Origin: a virus
Length of the DNA stretch: 26,519 nt
Reading direction: 5' to 3' (one strand)
Virus record (IMG/VR): IMGVR_UViG_3300028920_000241
Location: 1 to 26,519 of that record
This document shows positions 2,969 to 25,779 of the stretch, in pieces. Within the stretch, counting starts at the first letter, position 1; each line of letters starts with the position of its first letter. The translations under genes were made by a program, and so were the position numbers. The notes beneath the pieces are model-generated. The model was not told the DNA's origin, ran no database searches, and saw nothing but the letters and a program-made list of their open reading frames with translations.

Positions 2969-3805
2969 GTGACAATATTAACAGTTCAATTTGATATCAA
3001 CGGTTACACGGACTACAAGGAACTGTTACGTGTATTCGAGTCATCTGTGCACCGGCACATGCCGGAGGCGAACTTTGAGAAGATCATTCTGCCGGCAGAG
3101 GATCGCACTCCTGCTATGCGTTGCGGTAAACACGCGAACACGCGTAAGCTTGAGGTTTGGGTAGATTACATCGATAACACTGACGACGATGTTATCTTAG
3201 CCGACTGCGATATGCTGATGCTTAAGAGCGCCGAGCACGCCTTCGATCTGCCGTTTGATATTGCGTATACGCGCCGGCTGAAGGTAGGCAAGGTTCCCTT
3301 TAACAACGGGATCATGATGGTCCGTCCTACTGGAGCCTCTCGCGACTTTATGCACCGCTGGCTTGAAGTGAACAATCAGATGTTTCTTGATAAAGACTTT
3401 CATGGAGTGTGGAACAGAAAGTATAAGGGTATGAATCAGACAGCGTTCGGTTATATGCTTGAGAGGGGTGAGCATCATGCTGACCTTCATGCTTACACAA
3501 CCCGTGAATGGAATGCTGTAGATCCGGACTGGTCGTACATTGATGACGATACGGTGTTCGTGCATATAAAGGGAGCGCTTAGGGACGCTACTGTACGGGG
3601 TAAAGCCCCGCTCGGTTCTGTCGTATATCCTGCAGCCCTCTGGTACAAGGAAGCCGGTCAAGGTATTCCTCATCAATATAAAAGGCTTATAGACATACGC
3701 AGAAACGGTCGCGGTCACAGTGCCATAGTACGGAAGCATCTGAGACGGCAGGGGGGGCAGCTTAATAAGGTTGAGAGTATGATGGAAAAGGCGGGTCTTA
3801 TATGA
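2969..3805 (+). CDS. GT-A fold glycosyltransferase (GT8-like)
   Basis: The protein has 278 residues and starts with GTG behind GAGGT. Sugar-nucleotide transferase features appear in order: an N-terminal beta strand (TILTVQFDI), an ADCD motif at about residues 78-81 that fits the metal-binding DxD of GT-A enzymes, 'FNNGIMMVRP' at about 111-120 (the N-x-G-x-x-x element of GT8-like and related families), and VHIKG at about 198-202, matching the late H-x-x-G metal-ligand motif of GT8-like enzymes. It should transfer a sugar from a nucleotide donor; acceptor and sugar are not readable. It overlaps the next glycosyltransferase by 4 bases (ATGA), so the two are co-translated. Possible roles are virion protein glycosylation or host surface modification. 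Confidence 0.82.
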   Translation: MTILTVQFDINGYTDYKELLRVFESSVHRHMPEANFEKIILPAEDRTPAMRCGKHANTRKLEVWVDYIDNTDDDVILADCDMLMLKSAEHAFDLPFDIAYTRRLKVGKVPFNNGIMMVRPTGASRDFMHRWLEVNNQMFLDKDFHGVWNRKYKGMNQTAFGYMLERGEHHADLHAYTTREWNAVDPDWSYIDDDTVFVHIKGALRDATVRGKAPLGSVVYPAALWYKEAGQGIPHQYKRLIDIRRNGRGHSAIVRKHLRRQGGQLNKVESMMEKAGLI

Positions 3806-4548
3806 CTCCTATAATAGCTGTGATAATGGTACGCAACGAAGATCTCTACATTAAGTATGTTATTGAGGGTGTAGAACGGTTTGTTGACGACATCCTTATG
3901 ATAGACACCGGCAGTACTGACGATACGGTAAGCATAGCGAAGCATTGTGGAGTAACACCGGTGCATGAGCCGAATCTGAAGAAGACGCACAGCTACATTG
4001 AGCCGTATATCGGGAAGAATGTGTGGGTCTTCGGCGTTGATGGGGATGAAATATTCGACCCTGCAGGACTCGAGACGCTGTACAGCCAGATAGAGAGCGG
4101 AATGTATGATCTTGCTTACCAAGTGCAAGGCTGGTTTCTGCACGCCACCGAGTTCACGCCAGGAGACAATACTGCGAAAGGGTATCTTGGTCCGCCGGCA
4201 CACACTCCGACGAAGCTGTACAATATGAGTCATATATCAAGGTGGCCGAACACCTATAATGATGTGCTGTTTCATGTAGGCACCCGTGTACATGCGGGCA
4301 AGAAAATGCGGGCTCTTCCAGACACGTGGGAAGGCAATCCGCTACGGTGTGTGCACACGCGGTTTCTGCGGAGATCTACCGCTGACCGGGAAGAAGAGGT
4401 AGGAGTGCGGTTCGGTCCGGGGCACAATGCCGGCAAGCGGCTGAACTCAGGATTTAAGGGGAAAGATCCTGCAAAGAACTATCGTCATAACTACAGACGT
4501 GGTATAATACAGGAAGTAGAGATTTGGGATATGTTGAGGGAGGAGTGA
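3802..4548 (+). CDS. Family 2-like glycosyltransferase
   Basis: The protein has 248 residues and starts at an ATGA overlap with the preceding glycosyltransferase. The N-terminus has classic GT2 landmarks: 'AVIMVRNE' (residues 6-13), 'IDTGSTDDT' (34-42) binding the nucleotide, and 'FGVDGDE' (about 77-83), where DGDE fills the DxD position. This is the shape of the GT2 group that reads '.RNE......D.IvVvDtgStD.T...'. There are no membrane segments, so it is a soluble cytoplasmic enzyme. Donor and acceptor are unknown. It forms a cassette with the upstream GT8-like and the downstream methyltransferase genes; its TGA overlaps the methyltransferase ATG by one base. Confidence 0.9.
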   Translation: MTPIIAVIMVRNEDLYIKYVIEGVERFVDDILMIDTGSTDDTVSIAKHCGVTPVHEPNLKKTHSYIEPYIGKNVWVFGVDGDEIFDPAGLETLYSQIESGMYDLAYQVQGWFLHATEFTPGDNTAKGYLGPPAHTPTKLYNMSHISRWPNTYNDVLFHVGTRVHAGKKMRALPDTWEGNPLRCVHTRFLRRSTADREEEVGVRFGPGHNAGKRLNSGFKGKDPAKNYRHNYRRGIIQEVEIWDMLREE

Positions 4549-5213
4549 TGCCGAGCAAAGAAATCATTGAGGCGGAAAGGAATCGCAAAAAGCCGGTTGT
4601 ACCGAGAAAGGCGAACATACGGGAGCAACTTTTAGAAGCGCATAAAGCTGAGCGGAGCCGCATAAACGGCAAAAGCAAACGGTGGGAAGAGCTGATTGCT
4701 CGCATACCGGTAGCGGTCCCTACGCGTGGAGCTGAGATCGGCGTATGGAAAGGAGCGACATCAAAGCAGGTTCTGCAGAAGCGCCCCCTTACGACTCTTC
4801 TTATGATAGACAGTTGGCGCCGTCCTCCGGAAGGCAGCCGGTATGCTGAGACTCCCGGCACTACACAGCACAGGCCGCAGGAAGTCTTTGATGAAGCGTA
4901 TGAAGGCGTGCTTGCCATGGCACAACGCTATGGTGAACGCGGTCTTGTTATGGCAATGTACAGCAAGGAGGCAGCAGAGGAGGTCAGCAACCACAGTCTT
5001 GATTACGTCTTTATAGATGCCGAGCACACCTATGAAGGGGTAAAGGAAGACATTGCGTTGTGGTCGCCGAAGGTCAAGCACGGCGGCTGGATCGGCGGAC
5101 ACGACTATAACAATTTGCCGAACTTTCCTGGAGTGAAGAAGGCTGTTGATGAAGCTTTCCCTGACGGGGTGGAGCTCGGTGCAGACCACGTTTGGTTCAA
5201 ACGTATTCTTTGA
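4548..5213 (+). CDS. Class I SAM-dependent methyltransferase (Methyltransf_24-like)
   Basis: ATG at 4548 is chosen because it has a GGAGG about 4 bases upstream and overlaps the previous TGA by one base. An in-frame TTG at 4524 has no such site. The product is 221 residues. A basic helical N-terminus (1-50) precedes a Rossmann methyltransferase: 'GAEIGVWKG' (61-69, SAM motif I), 'MIDSW' (86-90), 'DYVFIDAEHTYEG' (about 152-164) and 'GGHDY' (183-187). The IDA.H.YE and GG..GGHDY elements are the signature of the Methyltransf_24 group, many of which methylate sugars or act beside glycosyltransferases. Placement after two glycosyltransferases suggests methyl capping of a glycan, which is inference. 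Confidence 0.9.
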   Translation: MPSKEIIEAERNRKKPVVPRKANIREQLLEAHKAERSRINGKSKRWEELIARIPVAVPTRGAEIGVWKGATSKQVLQKRPLTTLLMIDSWRRPPEGSRYAETPGTTQHRPQEVFDEAYEGVLAMAQRYGERGLVMAMYSKEAAEEVSNHSLDYVFIDAEHTYEGVKEDIALWSPKVKHGGWIGGHDYNNLPNFPGVKKAVDEAFPDGVELGADHVWFKRIL

Positions 5214-5226
5214 GTGAGGAGAATAT

Positions 5227-5724
5227 ATGGTAGATGTTACTTGTTTGAAACAATTGTTGTTATATGACCCATTGACAGGAAACATTACATGGAAGAGAAA
5301 CCACTTCTCAATGAAAGCTGGACAGATTGCTGGCGCGGTTGACGATCGCGGTTATCGTAGGATTTCAATTAAAGGTAAGTCGCATTTAGCGCATAGAATA
5401 GCTTGGGTTTTTATTAGTGGCGATTGGCCTATCAATCAAATAGATCATATTAACGGTAATAAAGATGATAATAGGGCTATGAATCTTCGTGATGTAACTA
5501 ATCGCGCTAATATAATCAACTCTTATAAGCACCGCAACGGAAAACTACCTGGAGCTACCTATCTTAAGAGGCTAAAGCAAAGAAAACACCCGTGGCAAGC
5601 TCAGATAAGGATAGACGGAAAACAAACTTTCCTTGGCTGTTTTGCTACTAAAGAGGATGCTAATAAAGCTTATATGAAAGTTTATAGCGATTTAGAAAAC
5701 TTATATGAGCGTGGAGGAGGTTGA
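5227..5724 (+). CDS. HNH homing endonuclease with AP2 DNA-binding domain
   Basis: The protein has 165 residues and starts with ATG behind GAGGAG. The HNH core spans about 52-95: 'HRIAWVF' with H56, 'QIDHINGNKDDNR' with D73-H74 and N82, then 'MNLRDVTNRAN'. A C-terminal AP2-like domain follows ('HPWQAQIRIDGKQTFLGCF', then TKEDANKAY). HNH-AP2 proteins are free-standing homing endonucleases of phages. The gene is visibly richer in A/T (codons such as att, aat, tat) than its neighbours, suggesting recent transfer. It lies between the methyltransferase and adaptor genes and appears to split no coding sequence. Its final codons supply the GGAGG of the adaptor gene. Confidence 0.93.
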   Translation: MVDVTCLKQLLLYDPLTGNITWKRNHFSMKAGQIAGAVDDRGYRRISIKGKSHLAHRIAWVFISGDWPINQIDHINGNKDDNRAMNLRDVTNRANIINSYKHRNGKLPGATYLKRLKQRKHPWQAQIRIDGKQTFLGCFATKEDANKAYMKVYSDLENLYERGGG

Positions 5725-6682: not shown

Positions 6683-7376
6683 TTTACTGGCCTTAGTGAC
6701 GTGGAATACGTCATTCGAGGATAACCCGAGCGGCAACGACAGCCCGAGCTACGGCGATGATGAGATCAGACTCTTAAAGACAGGAATAAGAGAGCGGTTT
6801 GAGAAGGGGCACACGATGAACCTCGGCAGCGGAACGGTTGCTGCAGACGGCTGGCACAAGAGCGGGAGTGCAAAACTATATTATCAGGCTGCTGAGCCTA
6901 CAACGCGCCCCGATGGTACAACTGCCCTCACTGCTGATGACAATGGCCGCCGGTGGGTTCGCTCTACTGATAGAAGCGAATATGTTTACGTGCATCCATC
7001 ATGGGTTCCTGTTTCAATTTTAGTTGGCGGTAACAATGTTTTCTCTGGAGATAATGATCACACTGGAGAAGAAACTTTCTCAGGTGGGGCTGATCTTGGG
7101 AATAATGGTACGTCAATAGGTATAAAAGCCTTAACAGGAACGTTAAATGCTGGCGGAAATATATCCGTAGCTCATGGTCTTGACGTTGACGACATTCTTG
7201 TTGCGATAGCATTTGTACATAGTATTACTAACAGTAATTGGGCGGCTATACCTTGGGATGGAGATGGGACAAGCGGTGCATACGTATTTTACGACGCTAC
7301 AAATGTTATCATAACTAGCTTAACTGCTGATTATAATAATCAAGGCTATAGAATTGTAGTTATTTACGCAATATAG
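6666..7376 (+). CDS. Short tail fibre / receptor-binding protein
   Basis: The ATG at 6666 has a GGAGG 6 bases upstream, inside the end of the adaptor gene (17-base overlap). The product is 236 residues. The N-terminal 40 residues contain 'GDDEIRLLKTGIRERFEKGH', a common virion-anchor motif of phage fibre proteins (N-S-P..GDD.IR.LK). The middle resembles a collar segment ('DNGRRWVRSTDRSEY'), followed by 'NNVFSGDNDHTGEETFSGG', a repeat style typical of trimeric fibres. The last 100 or so residues look like a compact beta domain ('DDILVAIAFVHS...', 'YRIVVIYAI') and are encoded by clearly more AT-rich DNA (about 7000-7376), consistent with an exchanged receptor-binding tip. Receptor unknown. Confidence 0.75.
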   Translation: MDILRSLLALVTWNTSFEDNPSGNDSPSYGDDEIRLLKTGIRERFEKGHTMNLGSGTVAADGWHKSGSAKLYYQAAEPTTRPDGTTALTADDNGRRWVRSTDRSEYVYVHPSWVPVSILVGGNNVFSGDNDHTGEETFSGGADLGNNGTSIGIKALTGTLNAGGNISVAHGLDVDDILVAIAFVHSITNSNWAAIPWDGDGTSGAYVFYDATNVIITSLTADYNNQGYRIVVIYAI

Positions 7377-8471: not shown

Positions 8472-9954
8472 AAAGGGCCGAGAGGCGCAACTATACCCGA
8501 AAAGCTCAGGAAACAATGCGACGAATGAAGATCAGATTGTCGCATCTGAAGCCTTCGAGTGGCACTACAGTGCAGATAAGAAGACGATCTATGTTACTAT
8601 GACTGACGGCTACGTCTTCGCTCTCAATGCCTCTGAGCTCACCATAGACGGTGACTCTATTGCTACCTATCTTGCCTCTTTAGCAGGAGAGGAGTTGCCG
8701 CTGGCTTCAATCATATGGTGGGATAAATCGCTTGAAGCGGTGAGCAAGACGAACAAGAGCAGCGGCACAGCAGACACAGATACTGCTACCTGTCTCGAAG
8801 ACTCTACTGCTACCTTTCAGACTGACGGCGTAGTTGCCGGCGACATTGTGTGGAACACGACCGATAGCGTGCCTGCTACTGTGGTATCAGTGGACAGCGA
8901 AATAAAAATCACGCTCGACTATGATGCTTTTCCTGACGGCAACGAAGACTACGACATCTATGATGAGCCGGACGTACAGCCAGGATGGGTTGAAATGGAT
9001 GGCGGCACTATCGATGAGCCAAACTCTCCCTTCGATGGCATGGGCATCGTTGATGTAATAGGTGAAGAGCGGTTTATCAGGGCGCGGCAAACGGCAGGTA
9101 GACTTCAGGCTGATGCAATAAGAAACATAGAAGGATCATTCCAAGGTAATGATGGCTTCTTTTATAACATGACAGGCGCTTTTGAACCCATAGGGGGGAC
9201 CAGTACAGGACCGGCAGGCTCTGGTAATAGTAGATACGTTACAGTCGGCTTCGATGCCTCAAACGTTGTGCCTACAGCAGATGAAAACAGACCTATTAAC
9301 ATCTCAGCTATTCCGATCATTAAAATAATGAACAGCACAAGTGTGAAGCTTGCTACCTACTACTCGGTAGATGGTGACAATTTTGCTGACCTTGCTCACC
9401 TGAGCGACCTTGCCGACGATGACCGGCTTGTCGTGTGGGATGAGTCGACTGAGACGTATCAGTATACAGAGATCGATGATATCCATGAGCACTTTATAAA
9501 GAAGACTGAAATTGGCGTTTTCCAGCATACTAATAATGGGAATGCTTTGTCTCCATGTGGGCTAAATGTATGGTGTACTACGCCCCTGAATACTGAACAA
9601 TATAATGGTATTACGGGAGCATCATCGGATATGGTAACAAACCATGATGTCACTCTGCCAGCCGGCACTTATGAGATTGATTTTTCTCATGTGTTTATGC
9701 GCTCTGGTGTTGTCCGGGCTCGTGTGTATGATGTCACAAATAGCGCTGTTATTGTTGGCCCGATTGGTGGCTTCGCTGATAGCGGGTCAGACGGTGACCA
9801 AGTTGCTTATCCGTGTTGTGCTATAGTTATATTGACCGGCGAAACCACGATTAGACTTGAGCATCAGTATAATACCTCAAGTTCTTACGAGATTGGCTAC
9901 GGAATTGGTGAAGAGGCGGTATATAGCTGGTTAAAAGTCAGGAGGATTGCGTGA
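8449..9954 (+). CDS. Tail fibre protein with collar-like middle and C1q/TNF-like tip
   Basis: The protein has 501 residues. ATG at 8449 has AGAGGA 7 bases upstream and overlaps the previous gene by 23 bases. Three parts are visible. About 100-180 is a beta insertion ('ATCLEDSTATF...GDIVWNTTDS...'). About 180-290 looks like a tail-collar domain: 'GWVEMDGGTIDEPNSPFDG', then 'GRLQADAIRNIEGSF', then 'ENRPINISAIPIIKIM', which are recurrent landmarks of phage fibre collars. The C-terminal 140 residues ('GVFQHTNNG...', 'TLPAGTYEIDFSH', 'TIRLEHQYN...', 'SWLKVRRIA') have the strand pattern and terminal 'W..v.ri' of C1q/TNF-like jelly rolls, typical of trimeric receptor-binding tips. The tip region is more AT-rich than the rest. 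Confidence 0.82.
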   Translation: MGKETVSRKGREAQLYPKSSGNNATNEDQIVASEAFEWHYSADKKTIYVTMTDGYVFALNASELTIDGDSIATYLASLAGEELPLASIIWWDKSLEAVSKTNKSSGTADTDTATCLEDSTATFQTDGVVAGDIVWNTTDSVPATVVSVDSEIKITLDYDAFPDGNEDYDIYDEPDVQPGWVEMDGGTIDEPNSPFDGMGIVDVIGEERFIRARQTAGRLQADAIRNIEGSFQGNDGFFYNMTGAFEPIGGTSTGPAGSGNSRYVTVGFDASNVVPTADENRPINISAIPIIKIMNSTSVKLATYYSVDGDNFADLAHLSDLADDDRLVVWDESTETYQYTEIDDIHEHFIKKTEIGVFQHTNNGNALSPCGLNVWCTTPLNTEQYNGITGASSDMVTNHDVTLPAGTYEIDFSHVFMRSGVVRARVYDVTNSAVIVGPIGGFADSGSDGDQVAYPCCAIVILTGETTIRLEHQYNTSSSYEIGYGIGEEAVYSWLKVRRIA

Positions 9955-10535
9955 ACTATTGGAACGAATGTTGTACGAAGACAGACACCGAGTGGCACTG
10001 GCATCTTGAGCCGGACGGCAGTCTGTTTATTGAGTTTGAGGGTAGCACGAGTAAACTGGACTGGCTTCAGAACTTTCGGTTCCTACGTGTCGTGTACAAG
10101 GATATGCCTACGGTGTGGCGGGCGCACGCCGGCTTCGTTGAGAAGTGGCACTCTATTCGGGACCGTTTCCTCGAAGTTGTGGCTGAATACGGCAGTCATG
10201 GGGTGTGGCTGCAGGGCTACAGTCAGGGCGGAGCGCTTGCCACTCTTGCACATGAGGACGTGTGGTGGCACTGGCCTGAGCTGAGAACGAAGTTGCACAC
10301 GATTACGTATGGGGCGCCGCGGACAGTGAGCTGGTGCGCTCCTGATAACAGGTGGATCGGACTGACGGCGGTATGGTTAGGATGGGACATTGTACATCAG
10401 GTTCCACCGTGGCTGTTCGGCTATAAGCATGTCGGCGTAGTACAGCACATAGGACGGAAGTGGGTGTGGCCGCTACTGAGTGTGCGGGACCATCTGCGGT
10501 ATGAAGAGCGGCCCTGCTATAGAATAGAGCCGTAA
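9951..10535 (+). CDS. Class 3 lipase-like alpha/beta hydrolase
   Basis: The protein has 194 residues, with a GTG start overlapping the fibre stop by 4 bases (GTGA) and AGGA upstream. The class 3 lipase signature is complete and in order: 'EFEGSTSKLDWLQNF' (the FRGT..DW oxyanion region, residues 28-42), 'HAGF' (59-62), the nucleophile elbow 'GYSQGG' (89-94, Ser91), 'TYGAPR' (119-124), then 'DIVHQVPPW' with Asp146 and 'RDHLRYE' with His181 as the likely triad. It has no signal peptide or membrane segment. It would hydrolyse an ester or acylglycerol. Set between a fibre and the main tail protein, it may act on the host envelope or on acylated surface glycans; that substrate is inferred. Confidence 0.88.
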   Translation: MNYWNECCTKTDTEWHWHLEPDGSLFIEFEGSTSKLDWLQNFRFLRVVYKDMPTVWRAHAGFVEKWHSIRDRFLEVVAEYGSHGVWLQGYSQGGALATLAHEDVWWHWPELRTKLHTITYGAPRTVSWCAPDNRWIGLTAVWLGWDIVHQVPPWLFGYKHVGVVQHIGRKWVWPLLSVRDHLRYEERPCYRIEP

Positions 10536-21048: not shown

Positions 21049-21640
21049 CGATCTCGCGGAACACGTACACGTTCGGCACATCAAATATGAGTGTTACCCC
21101 TTTACGGTTCTCTGCGAAGATCTTTGTATCCAGTGAGAACTTATCTACTATGTACTCATAACGCTTAAGATCGTACGTGTAGTAGTCATCACCGAATGTG
21201 TCCCTAAGCTTGACGGCCCGATTGCGCAGTTCAGGGATAGACTTCAGAACGCGCTTGAGCTCGCTGCGCCGGCGGTAAAAGTAGCAGGCAATAGTGTCAC
21301 GGCTGCAACCGCTGAGCTTCTGCAGGTGGTAGAAGTCTCGGGGCATAGGCTCACCTTCGTGCTTCTCAAGCCACTGAGCAAACTTGCTTGTGTGCCGGCT
21401 GTGGTGCACGGCCATCTTCATAGCGTTGCTGCGTGAGAGCAGCGGCACGTTATTCTCTTTCAACACTCGAAGCAACGTGACGTGACTGATTCCGAGAGCC
21501 TTCGCTGCAGCTCTCGCCGTCTTGAACTTCCGGTACGCACCCACCATCTTCTCCAAGGGTATTCGCGTATATACTGACGGGCGGCCTACTGCTTTCTTCT
21601 CCTCCACCTTTTCCTCTACCTTTTCCTTTTTCTTTGACAT
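20819..21640 (-). CDS. Double helix-turn-helix DNA-binding protein
   Basis: The protein has 273 residues. The ATG at 21640 has AAGGAG about 10 bases upstream. A lysine/glutamate-rich leader with a GRP motif (about residues 19-21) precedes a resolvase-like HTH ('ARAAAKALGISHVTLLRVL', about 42-60). A second HTH-like unit follows ('FYHLQKLSGCSRDTIACYF', about 102-120). The C-terminal region contains 'GVTLIFDVPNVYVFREI' and an acidic tail. It probably binds DNA; possible roles are transcription control or replication/packaging initiation, and I do not recognise the family. It is last in the minus-strand replication unit. It overlaps the upstream primase/helicase gene by 191 bases in a different frame, and the 1717-residue gene by 230 bases on the opposite strand. 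Confidence 0.75.
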   Translation of the reverse strand: MSKKKEKVEEKVEEKKAVGRPSVYTRIPLEKMVGAYRKFKTARAAAKALGISHVTLLRVLKENNVPLLSRSNAMKMAVHHSRHTSKFAQWLEKHEGEPMPRDFYHLQKLSGCSRDTIACYFYRRRSELKRVLKSIPELRNRAVKLRDTFGDDYYTYDLKRYEYIVDKFSLDTKIFAENRKGVTLIFDVPNVYVFREIVNASDLLPESSLPQGKLATDPLDHSTREPFLRNETEYFRATFRDSLRTNPEFLYNLPEKTSEQAESEPDEPDNQNP

Positions 21641-23099
21641 GCTTCTTCATCTCCTTCGGATCGTATTTATTAAGCTTGCTCTTCTCTTCCACGTACAGCT
21701 TTGACAGCGTATACACTTCATCTCCGGCCTTGCTCGGATAGCTGTGTTGTTTCCCGCCCCTTGTTATCATTATATTACCAGTCTGCACTAAGTAGTCAAG
21801 AATCGGGTTGAGCTCATCAGCCTTATATTTGCACTTACGCATGAGCTCTGTACGGGTGAGGCTTACGTGCCGGTCAAGTATACGCAGCACTGACTCGCCG
21901 TTCCCTATCACTTCATCACCAAGTTCACCAAGCAGAGCGGCGCTCATACCGTAGGTCATATGGACAAGGTTGATGGCCTCTGCCATGTCGTCGCCTGTTA
22001 TCTCGTTCTTCGGCTCCTGTACGTACCGCTGTGCCCTGAGCAACATCGCAACCTTCAGCAGGTTAATATCCATCCGTCCGCGCAGTCCGCTCTCAAACTC
22101 GTTTTGCTCAAGGTAATCCTTGTGGTCGTCGTACCAGCTATCATAGAGAGCGAACGCATCCTCGCTCAGATGATATTCACCGAGAGAGTTTTCAGCAATC
22201 CATGCAAGGCGCATTGACAGCTCCTCTATCGTAGGACCATGTTCGACCCTGCGCGGCATACTGAAACGGCGGTTCGTCTTCGATTGGTAGACGACTACAG
22301 AACGTGAGAGGAAGCCGTCGCCGGCGGCTACCTTCGGTACGCTCTCCTTGAAGGCGGTCGGCGTAGTGGCAGCAAGCATAGTTAGGTATGTCCTGTGAAA
22401 CTTCTTCACACCTTCACCCTTCGTTCGCCACTGCCACTCGTCCTTCGGATTGTACAGGTCCAGAAGGATCTCAACAAAGCCTTCAGTGTAGCTGCGCTTA
22501 CCGATGCTGCTCGTCATCTCGCTGAGCACTACTCCCATCTCGCTTGTTGCATTGTAGCGTATGGCCCTGTTATGCTTATCCAGCAGCGGATCTCCGTTCT
22601 CATCTACGAAAGCAAACGCCGCCTTTCCCGGCTTATTCGCAGGAAGCATAGCGTCGAGCAGCGCTTCAGGGGTCATCTTATCCTTCACGACGTGAATGTT
22701 CTTCATCCGCCTGATGTTAATGTTGTCGATATATTTTCCGATCCGTTCAATGATCGGCATACCAACTTCATCTATAGTGACGCTCTTTTTACAGCCAGCA
22801 GGCCCCGCGAGTATTACGTACAGATTCGGGTACAGCACTCGCGGGTACCAGCTCAGCCACGCCTCCCTCTTTATGACTGTGCTCAGGAGCCAGAGTCCGC
22901 TCCATAGCGTGAACAGCGTCGGGACCTCCATACCTCTCATAAAATATACAAGGTCGGTAAGGAAGCCCTTCTGCTGCGGGATGGCACTATCATAGAGATC
23001 CGGCAACCAGAAAGGAGACGGATCGTTCTCTTCAAGGTAAGGCGCAGGCGGCTCTGTGTAACCGCCTTCGGCCTTTTCAAATACGTGTTCCTCTTGCAT
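21450..23099 (-). CDS. DUF3987-like primase/helicase ATPase
   Basis: The protein has 549 residues. The ATG lies one base after the polymerase stop, with GAAGGTG upstream. It is a P-loop ATPase: 'YVILAGPAGCKKS' (Walker A, GPAGCKKS at 99-106, the G-P-x-G-x-x-K-S variant of DUF3987/YfjI-like proteins), 'AFAFVDENGDP' and 'GVVLSEMTSSIGK' (Walker B/acidic region), 'YLTMLAATTP' (sensor 1-like) and 'GDGFLSRSVVVY' (arginine-finger-like). A winged-helix-like part ('RILDRHVSLTRTELMRKCKY') sits at about 405-450. DUF3987 proteins accompany phage polymerases as replicative helicases. No primase domain is seen at the N-terminus. The last 63 residues are a Gly/Ser/Glu-rich low-complexity tail that overlaps the HTH gene, so the true end deserves checking. 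Confidence 0.85.
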   Translation of the reverse strand: MQEEHVFEKAEGGYTEPPAPYLEENDPSPFWLPDLYDSAIPQQKGFLTDLVYFMRGMEVPTLFTLWSGLWLLSTVIKREAWLSWYPRVLYPNLYVILAGPAGCKKSVTIDEVGMPIIERIGKYIDNINIRRMKNIHVVKDKMTPEALLDAMLPANKPGKAAFAFVDENGDPLLDKHNRAIRYNATSEMGVVLSEMTSSIGKRSYTEGFVEILLDLYNPKDEWQWRTKGEGVKKFHRTYLTMLAATTPTAFKESVPKVAAGDGFLSRSVVVYQSKTNRRFSMPRRVEHGPTIEELSMRLAWIAENSLGEYHLSEDAFALYDSWYDDHKDYLEQNEFESGLRGRMDINLLKVAMLLRAQRYVQEPKNEITGDDMAEAINLVHMTYGMSAALLGELGDEVIGNGESVLRILDRHVSLTRTELMRKCKYKADELNPILDYLVQTGNIMITRGGKQHSYPSKAGDEVYTLSKLYVEEKSKLNKYDPKEMKKHVKEKGKGRGKGGGEESSRPPVSIYANTLGEDGGCVPEVQDGESCSEGSRNQSRHVASSVERE

Positions 23100-23100
23100 G

Positions 23101-25779
23101 TTACACCTTCAGTTCTTTTAATGAGCCCCAATTCGGTCCTACCTCTACGTCTACCGGGAACACTACGTTCCGCTTTCCGATCTTAACCGGCTTTTCCATG
23201 ACGTCTTTTATTTTCTTCCCCTCCCGCTTGTACACACTATTCGGCACCTCAAACAACAGTGAGTCATGGACCTGTCCTACCAGTTTTGCCTTCAGCTCTC
23301 CTGCTCCAATCATACGCTCAAGCTCTATCATAGCAAGGTTGATGATGTCGGCTGCTGTAGACTGAATTGGAAAGTTCAAGCCTTCCCGTACTATCTCATT
23401 ATCGCGCCCGAGGAAATAGCGCACACGTCCAAACGCATTCTCAAGCCGGCGGGTTGTTTGCACCTCCCGTATCACACTGTTACGCCAGCGGTCGTACTGC
23501 GGATGCGCCTTTCTGTACGCTTCATCTATTTCACAAAACCGCTCATAGGTAAGGTTAAGCTCGGGCACAGCCTTCACTACGCGGGCATGTATTCCCTTAA
23601 GGCCGCCTCCGTAGTTGCGCCCGAAAATATACGTCTTACAGGCTCTGCGGGCGCCCTTCCACAACGGGTGGTCATCATCAATCTGAAACATCATCTTGCA
23701 GTTCTCAGTATGAACGTTCAGACCGCGGGCAAATATGTCACGCAGAACATCATCGTTGCTGATCTCTGCCATCACTCTCAGCTCAAGGTTGCTGTAGTCG
23801 AGCTGTATAAAGACTGAGCCCTCGGGAGCTATGAACAGATGCTTTGCCTCCGGAGGAATGTTCTGCATGTTGCCGGCCTCACCCTCTTTCTTATTGCCGC
23901 TACTGAGCCGTCCAGTGTTTGTGCCGGTTATGCGGTACGGAGCCCGCAGCCGATTATCCTTACCGAGCGGAAATGAAGTGTATGTCGTAAGCAGTTTCTC
24001 ATTCGCTCTATACTCACGGTATGTAGTGAGCAGATCGGTGAGCCGTAACAGCTCTGCCTTCTCATCAGCGTGCTTAGGAGTAAGACGGCGAAGCCTCCCT
24101 ATCTCGGCGAGTCGGTTGTTCGCCGCGACCTGAACGTTCAGGAGCGCTTCGTCGTCAAGACTTATGTTTCCGCTTTCTGTTTTCTTCGGCGTATGCCGCA
24201 ACCGTCTGAACGGCACAATAACGTTGAACAGCTCAACACGTTCGAGCAGCTGACGGTACGCCTTCGTGTTGCGGTTCTTCTTTGGGTCGTCGGTGTACGC
24301 CTTCAGTTTATCGACTGCAGTAGACCATTGTTTCGGTACTATGCCAAAGATCAGGTAACGCATGTGGTCGCCTGAGTTAAAGTTGAACTCTTCCGGAACA
24401 CGGGCAAGCTCGAGCAGCTTCGCATACAGCGTTTTCTGTTTCCGTTTCAGCTTCACTCTCCACTTGCGCAGAGCCGCTGTATCTACAAGAATACCGTTCT
24501 CTATCATGTGCAGGACTGCAGGAACAAGGGGCATCGCTATATTCTCATACACGTACAGGACACCGCTTTCCTTCGCATCCTCGAGCATGGGACCAAGCAC
24601 CTGATGGAGCACTACACAGTCACGCAAGTTATAAGTGCGAAGCTGATCATCGGGAGCCTTAATGAGCGCCTTCATTGAGTCCAGCATCTCGCCTTTCCAA
24701 TACGGTGTCTTCCCATAGACGCTGGTAATGTAGCCAAGGTTGTGCGGCAGCTCAGGATTCAGGCAGTGGTGCAGGATCATCGTGTCGTGCTTAATACGCT
24801 TCGGTTCACAGCCGAGATACATCAGGTGACGGGCATCGAAGAGAGCGTTCTGAAAAATAGTATCGCACTCTTCCATCATGATCTTAAGCTGAGCAAGAGC
24901 GGCGGCTTTATCAAACGGCTCGAAGTTCTGTTTACCGCCCTCCTTAAGGAAGGGGATAGAGAAAGCCCGCTCTCCAGTCTCTGCTATACCTGTCACTATG
25001 ATAGCGGCGTGGCCGGGGACGAAGCCGCTTGTCTCGAGGTCAACGGCAAGCAGGTTCGAGTTCTCTACAGCGCTCCTCGCTCGGTCCTCTATTTCAAGGG
25101 CAGTCGGATAAATGTTGAAGTTTTCAGCCGGCGGCACGTACCGCTTCTTCGTGAGCTCATACGCTTTATCAAGGTCGTTGATGAACGTGACTTGATGTCG
25201 CGGATCTTTACTATAGTCTAAGAAGGCCGGATGAAAAGTCGGTATACACAGTATATCATAGGCGCCGTCGGATGGTTCGAGAACCATAACATCCTTCACT
25301 CCGTCAGTAAAGAAATCAGCCATGCGCCAGCGCATAGGAGTAACTGAGCCGCGAATACGTGTAATGCTTTCCGTTATGCCGAACGCTGCTATAGCTGTTG
25401 CTCCGACCGGAACGAACACCTTCGCTCCCCTCTTATACAGCGCGTACAGCTCCTCAAAGAAACCTGCCCTGCAGCAGTCGATCGCAGTCTGCCCTTCCAC
25501 GCTTTCTATCTTGTTGTTTGGTGGACGACAACAGATCACGTTCGTCTTATGCGCCTTGTGCCACAGGTGGCCGGTGTCGGTGACAGCGTTCTTGAATATC
25601 CAGCCGGCCCGCCCGACAAACGGCACGCCTTTCAAATCCTCATCACCTCCGGGAGCTTCTCCTATGAAGACGATCTCAGGCCGCTCAGCATCACACTGAC
25701 CGTGCACCTTATGCCTTACTGCGCCGTCGAGCGGACACTCCTTACATATGCTTTTTGTTCTTACGATTTTTACACTCAT
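23101..25779 (-). CDS. Uracil-DNA glycosylase - family A DNA polymerase fusion
   Basis: The protein has 892 residues. Residues 1-210 are a family 4 uracil-DNA glycosylase: cysteines at 12, 15, 83/84 and 102/103 for an Fe-S cluster, 'FIGEAPGGDED' (38-48), 'PFVGRAG' (53-59), 'NVICCRPPN' (80-88) and 'HPA' (183-185). Residues 240-400 are a 3'-5' exonuclease: D247/E249 ('AVDLETSG'), N311/D315 ('NALFDARH') and Y383/D387 ('YNLRD'). Residues 420-892 are a family A polymerase: 'TNTGRLSS' (620-627), motif A 'DYSNLELR' (D661), O-helix 'RRACKTYIFGRNYG' (K715, F719, Y723), 'NFPIQSTAAD', and motif C 'QVHDS' (D839, S840 where Glu is usual). There is no 5' nuclease domain. It is the replicative polymerase of this phage. 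The ribosome binding site is weak; coupling to the upstream gene is likely. Confidence 0.97.
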   Translation of the reverse strand: MSVKIVRTKSICKECPLDGAVRHKVHGQCDAERPEIVFIGEAPGGDEDLKGVPFVGRAGWIFKNAVTDTGHLWHKAHKTNVICCRPPNNKIESVEGQTAIDCCRAGFFEELYALYKRGAKVFVPVGATAIAAFGITESITRIRGSVTPMRWRMADFFTDGVKDVMVLEPSDGAYDILCIPTFHPAFLDYSKDPRHQVTFINDLDKAYELTKKRYVPPAENFNIYPTALEIEDRARSAVENSNLLAVDLETSGFVPGHAAIIVTGIAETGERAFSIPFLKEGGKQNFEPFDKAAALAQLKIMMEECDTIFQNALFDARHLMYLGCEPKRIKHDTMILHHCLNPELPHNLGYITSVYGKTPYWKGEMLDSMKALIKAPDDQLRTYNLRDCVVLHQVLGPMLEDAKESGVLYVYENIAMPLVPAVLHMIENGILVDTAALRKWRVKLKRKQKTLYAKLLELARVPEEFNFNSGDHMRYLIFGIVPKQWSTAVDKLKAYTDDPKKNRNTKAYRQLLERVELFNVIVPFRRLRHTPKKTESGNISLDDEALLNVQVAANNRLAEIGRLRRLTPKHADEKAELLRLTDLLTTYREYRANEKLLTTYTSFPLGKDNRLRAPYRITGTNTGRLSSGNKKEGEAGNMQNIPPEAKHLFIAPEGSVFIQLDYSNLELRVMAEISNDDVLRDIFARGLNVHTENCKMMFQIDDDHPLWKGARRACKTYIFGRNYGGGLKGIHARVVKAVPELNLTYERFCEIDEAYRKAHPQYDRWRNSVIREVQTTRRLENAFGRVRYFLGRDNEIVREGLNFPIQSTAADIINLAMIELERMIGAGELKAKLVGQVHDSLLFEVPNSVYKREGKKIKDVMEKPVKIGKRNVVFPVDVEVGPNWGSLKELKV

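Follow-up and report, generated by a model that had tools for sequence, protein, structure and literature searches.

The polymerase gene of the window, by which we mean the whole stretch of DNA analysed (an entire IMG/VR record, 26,519 bases long and probably fragmentary), encodes a uracil-DNA glycosylase (UDG), an exonuclease and a family A polymerase in one polypeptide, with similarity to these families that is far beyond chance. UDG-fused phage PolA is a known architecture that recurs in dozens of viruses, with intact active sites as the rule. Relatives that have lost catalytic residues of the UDG conserve the domain, which suggests, on comparison of the aligned proteins, a non-catalytic DNA-binding role that was absent from the preliminary description of this DNA.

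Domain organization and predicted structure

The reading frame (25779–23101, minus strand) starts with an ATG and continues for 892 residues without an internal stop, at the coordinates given in the preliminary description (Table 1). Pfam assigns residues 27–203 to UDG (PF03167, E-value 1.2e-15, 58.2 bits against a cut-off of 24.3) and residues 581–885 to DNA_pol_A (PF00476, 4.8e-58). The match of residues 233–395 to DNA_pol_A_exo1 (PF01612, 6.1e-5) scores 23.3 bits, slightly below the cut-off of 23.6. A single PHROG profile, phrog_17, spans residues 24–890. The UDG was thus correctly described as fused in frame to a proofreading exonuclease and a family A polymerase. The best NCBIfam model for the UDG domain is UDG_fam4 (4.1e-25), ahead of UdgX (1e-15); both matches are below the models' own whole-protein cut-offs, that of UDG_fam4 being 125 bits. 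Solved relatives retrieved with the single sequence are Thermotoga TM0511 (~1e-19), 4zbx and 1ui0, and a profile of 16 lineage members matches TM0511 at 2e-50. The UDG_fam4 and TM0511 matches bear out the earlier assignment to family 4.

The full-length AlphaFold2 (AF2) model, computed with 27 lineage sequences, has a mean pLDDT of 89.9 and a pTM of 0.86. Its UDG domain is confidently predicted except for an insertion, where pLDDT falls below 50 at residues 158–171; a single-sequence model of the UDG domain alone (pLDDT 31) was discarded. The best 50 Foldseek matches of the full-length model in the PDB are polymerases only (Klenow/Taq/Bst fold) and, as a result, the UDG assignment rests on sequence profiles. 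Viral models in BFVD match over the full length, from UDG to polymerase, with TMq of 0.64–0.71 for ~950–1000 columns.

Table 1. Positions in the window of the fusion gene, its domains and motifs, and the adjacent gene.
Feature	Position	Strand	Basis and remarks
UDG-exonuclease-PolA fusion protein, 892 aa	23101..25779	(-)	open frame; Pfam/PHROG/NCBIfam domains; AF2
Family-4-like Fe-S UDG domain, residues 1-215	25135..25779	(-)	PF03167 1.2e-15; UDG_fam4 4.1e-25; TM0511 profile 2e-50
Fe-S cysteines C12-x2-C15	25735..25746	(-)	alignment with family-4 UDGs and the lineage
Motif A G40-E-A-P-G44, catalytic E41	25648..25662	(-)	alignment; E47 at 25639-25641
N80 (TNV motif) and Fe-S C84 in CRPPN (84-88)	25516..25542	(-)	alignment
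Fe-S cysteine C103	25471..25473	(-)	alignment
Lineage-variable insertion, residues 146-177, partly disordered in model	25249..25344	(-)	alignment; pLDDT <50 at 158-171
Motif B H183-P-A-F-L-D-Y189; position 189 usually Arg	25213..25233	(-)	alignment
3'-5' proofreading exonuclease, residues ~236-410	24550..25074	(-)	PF01612; catalytic residues present
Family A polymerase domain, residues ~581-890	23110..24039	(-)	PF00476 4.8e-58; Klenow/Taq/Bst fold
DUF3987 primase/helicase-like gene, 549 aa, next after polymerase	21450..23099	(-)	PF13148 5.3e-16; phrog_14296 DNA primase 6.2e-33

Active site of the window protein

By alignment, all four family 4 Fe-S cysteine positions are filled (C12, C15, C84 and C103), the cluster itself being predicted; C84 and C103 each lie beside an extra cysteine (C83 and C102). 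E47-D48 (in GEAPGGDED), C84-R-P-P-N88 and H183-P-A185 are also in place, so that the complete family 4 motifs listed in the preliminary description (four cysteines, GEAPG..ED, CRPPN and HPA) were all located. One departure from the family 4 consensus had been missed there. In motif B, HP(S/A)xxxR, the segment H183-P-A matches, but the arginine is replaced by Y189. Among 24 lineage members, this position is arginine in 15, tyrosine in four and lysine in three. The equivalent residue of MsmUdgX, R184, contacts a DNA phosphate (PMC10359453), and the missing arginine would count against a domain that both grips DNA and excises uracil. An insertion of ~30 residues (~146–177) lies upstream of motif B. 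The DEDDy exonuclease residues (D247, E249, D315, Y383 and D387) and the PolA residues (D661, E666, R711, K715, Y723, H838 and D839) are present and, as judged from the alignments, the active-site residues of all three domains are intact.

The domain shares GE(A/G)PG, E47-D, N80, CRPP, HP(A/S) and the four cysteines with the family 4 UDGs of known structure (Thermotoga TM0511, 1vk2; 1ui0; 4zbx), which differ in being stand-alone enzymes that have the motif-B arginine, whereas the window domain forms part of a polymerase chain. UdgX belongs to the same superfamily and has a similar Fe-S layout. It is defined by a GEQPG motif A and a KRRIH R-loop (PMC10359453); the window protein has GEAPG in place of GEQPG and no KRRIH R-loop in its sequence, which rules out membership in UdgX.

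Relatives and distribution of the fusion

The window protein belongs to a class in which a UDG-like domain lies directly N-terminal to the exonuclease and polymerase in one polypeptide. This architecture is known because it is shared by PHROG_17, by the full-length BFVD models and by PDB entry 9qhs. PHROG_17, which spans UDG to polymerase, matches all 27 aligned relatives. Scans of IMG/VR retrieved a lineage of such fusions and, counting named phages and duplicate retrievals as well, 49 ORFs contain both domains. A mixed alignment of ten UDG domains offered no conserved stretch for a locus search. The nearest named relative, Caudoviricetes sp. vir526 (BK063670), was assigned by its depositors to Methanomicrobiales and is 37% identical over the full length. 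It has the same UDG-exonuclease-PolA fusion with intact catalytic residues, and its adjoining primase and an esterase fall into PHROGs of the window; it differs from the window protein in keeping the motif-B arginine. IMG/VR relatives (L018–L058) carry the same fusion at identities of up to 45%, most of them with intact catalytic residues. The polymerase of Thermus phage phiLo (9qhs), for which a structure has been deposited, is a family A phage polymerase that likewise has an N-terminal UDG domain, but it is remote, is longer (1175 residues) and does not conserve CRPPN; the 9qhs sequence begins at residue 34, past the CxxC motif.

With vir526, PHROG_17, the BFVD models and phiLo as precedents, the earlier statement that the fusion is not unprecedented is upheld. 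The same description considered an intact set of catalytic residues less ordinary, a view that the relatives contradict: E41, E47, N80 and H183 are all kept in 18 of the 24 distinct lineage members, vir526 is intact and so is phage ctfzr933, which lies outside the lineage. Its interpretation therefore stands for the fusion, the motifs and family 4, but not for the rarity of the active site.

Among the papers searched, none dealt with UDG-PolA fusions or with 9qhs. The PDB molecule name of UdgX, "Phage SPO1 DNA polymerase-related protein", indicates that the link between UDGs and such polymerases was known earlier. An early survey of the UDG fold by Aravind and Koonin (2000) reportedly noted this link.

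Several relatives have interrupted polymerase genes. Two (L025:3642-6698 and L026:1608-5225) contain in-frame intein-like insertions just past GRL and before motif A, with ends of the form ..HNS / ..HNC. L040, L041, L043 and L044 encode the polymerase in two ORFs, with the break near the intein site (..GRLSSG / M-N-x-Q-N-[IL]-P..), the N-terminal part ending at ~6809–6818. Other sequence lies between the halves in three of these four, and L041 has an overlapping stop and start. An Rfam search for introns at the split polymerase genes gave no match.

Loss of catalytic residues and selection

Catalytic residues of the UDG are lost in six of the 24 lineage members (L028, L031, L038, L049, L057 and L058). 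Mapped onto the exonuclease-polymerase tree, these losses are most parsimoniously explained by five changes, at least three of which are forced by well-supported branches. All four Fe-S cysteines are retained in five of the six. L039 (4950-7589) presents the reverse situation, with E41, E47, N80 and H183 intact and all four cysteine positions lost, which would speak against an indispensable Fe-S cluster. Across the 24 members the cysteines are 92–96% conserved and the UDG catalytic positions 83–92%, while the structural positions G126, R143, G144, P180 and P184 are invariant. The exonuclease residues D247, E249, D315, Y383 and D387 are invariant in 24 of 24 rows, and D661 and E666 of the polymerase do not vary in any row with coverage there. 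It is thus the glycosylase chemistry alone that is being lost.

Within the intact vir526 group, dN/dS is 0.08–0.10 for the UDG domain, 0.03–0.05 for the exonuclease and 0.01–0.04 for the polymerase. The corresponding values for the catalytically dead pair L030/L031 are 0.06, 0.12 and 0.15, from one pair of sequences. The UDG domain of the dead pair is under purifying selection no weaker than that on its own polymerase. Such tight constraint on a dead domain suggests some function distinct from excision, although a single pair is thin evidence. Since dead lineages keep the domain, DNA binding may be its more basic constraint.

Genome context and host

The plus strand of the window encodes a Mu gpT-like capsid protein, an adaptor and tail proteins. 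The DUF3987 family of the neighbouring gene is matched in 18 of 20 fusion-bearing records, and its gene directly adjoins the polymerase in both the window and vir526. We infer that the fusion protein is the replicative polymerase of a tailed virus. Within the structural module (2969–5721, plus strand) are genes for a nucleotide-sugar transferase-like protein, a GT2 glycosyltransferase, a Methyltransf_24 methyltransferase and an HNH endonuclease. A class 3 lipase (PF01764, phrog_21992; 9951–10535, plus strand) lies amid the tail genes, and its PHROG is common to vir526.

Each of the 20 fusion-bearing records lacks a second UDG match, and the fused domain is therefore the only viral UDG found. 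The same 20 records, some of which may be incomplete contigs, contain no match to dUTPase families. Thymidylate synthase (TS) or dUMP hydroxymethylase-type genes are absent from the 19 lineage records, with the same proviso, the TS family being matched only in ctfzr933; a deaminase occurs in one of the 19. A host search in the genome collection returned one stand-alone UDG match, in a Sulfurovum MAG, and no provirus. The host can only be guessed from vir526, a distant relative assigned to methane-producing archaea.

Possible roles of the UDG domain

We consider it an even proposition that the UDG domain is the template-binding part of the replicase, with uracil recognition kept and, in this virus, probably also excision. 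The Fe-S UDG domain would dock on the polymerase, where it could hold and scan the template DNA, giving the replicase an integral DNA-binding element and perhaps greater processivity. The pocket of the domain would still recognize uracil in the template and probably still excise it in this virus, coupling a lesion check to replication; template binding would not need excision. Vaccinia D4 is a UDG that acts as a polymerase processivity factor (PMC10253040), and the D4-A20 pair offers a functional analogy, a UDG that likewise serves as the DNA-binding part of a viral replicase. D4 differs in being a family 1 enzyme and a separate subunit working with a family B polymerase, and its homology is limited to the UDG superfamily; on this analogy, we propose a D4-like processivity role for the fused domain. 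Against DNA grip as the whole explanation, the catalytic residues persist in most members, and either excising or binding uracil must therefore be important to most lineages.

A simpler account is plain repair, in which the tethered, active UDG clears uracil from double-stranded DNA and, once other enzymes have processed the AP site, the gap is filled by the polymerase, with no special role in replication. The intact catalytic residues of the window protein and of 18 of 24 relatives fit this account, as do two absences from the 20 records, that of a stand-alone UDG and that of a viral dUTPase; the latter would leave uracil misincorporation unchecked by the virus itself. However, the domain stayed through three to five losses of catalytic residues, and the polymerase gene is paired with a primase/helicase gene. 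Uracil excision in a single-stranded template would, moreover, create AP sites that block replication. We regard plain repair as unlikely. Reading of uracil ahead of synthesis, raised in the preliminary description, could also operate without excision: the domain would bind template uracil and stall the polymerase, by analogy with archaeal Pol-B and Pol-D. These replicases are inhibited by template uracil (PMC5045986), a precedent for a possibly shared uracil check in replication, although they have no UDG domain and belong to unrelated polymerase families. The Methanomicrobiales assignment of vir526, the conservation of pocket residues in most members and the tyrosine in place of the motif-B arginine, which could weaken turnover, are consistent with such stalling. 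But the residues conserved in most members include those for catalysis, beyond mere binding; lineages without E41, N80 or H183 probably no longer sense uracil and yet retain the domain; and an archaeal host is only a guess for the window virus. Stalling without excision seems to us slightly less likely still.

The preliminary description also raised recognition of a base-modified genome (dU or hmU) and discrimination of host DNA. Modified genomes are suggested for StAshley (L010) and BSTP5 (L015), in which polymerases with UDG-like domains adjoin 7-deazaguanine/queuosine biosynthesis genes, and the intact UDG-PolA gene of ctfzr933 (L012:1-6271) adjoins genes annotated as thymidylate synthase, FAD-dependent thymidylate synthase and pyrimidine hydroxymethylase. 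The absence of dUTPase (0 of 20 records) and, in the lineage itself, that of TS (0 of 19) and the near absence of deaminases (1 of 19) lend nothing to the idea, and a dU genome would itself be a target for an active UDG. Gene content does not favour a dU or hmU genome, in records that may be fragments, and discrimination of host DNA found no support; we think either role very unlikely. Separately, ctfzr933 is a candidate modified-pyrimidine phage. Finally, the degenerate versions of the domain in the six lineage members listed above could be taken to mean that it is an inactive, functionless relic, kept only because it is joined to the polymerase. Intact and dead members alike show purifying selection (dN/dS 0.05–0.10), which, together with the intact catalytic and Fe-S residues of the window protein, argues against a relic; we find this reading scarcely credible.

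Implications

A bolder form of the template-binding reading treats the fused UDG as an Fe-S template clamp in which glycosylase chemistry is optional, a base-excision enzyme converted by this polymerase family into a module for processivity and uracil sensing, which would be a second case beside poxvirus D4. We advance it tentatively and with some doubt; if it is true, the catalytically dead members would be ready-made natural controls. The fusion itself is not new, and the interest lies less in the intact window protein than in the variants of its lineage. These form a natural series (an intact UDG, a dead UDG under purifying selection and one without the Fe-S cysteines) that makes the contributions of excision, uracil sensing and DNA grip in a replicase testable.
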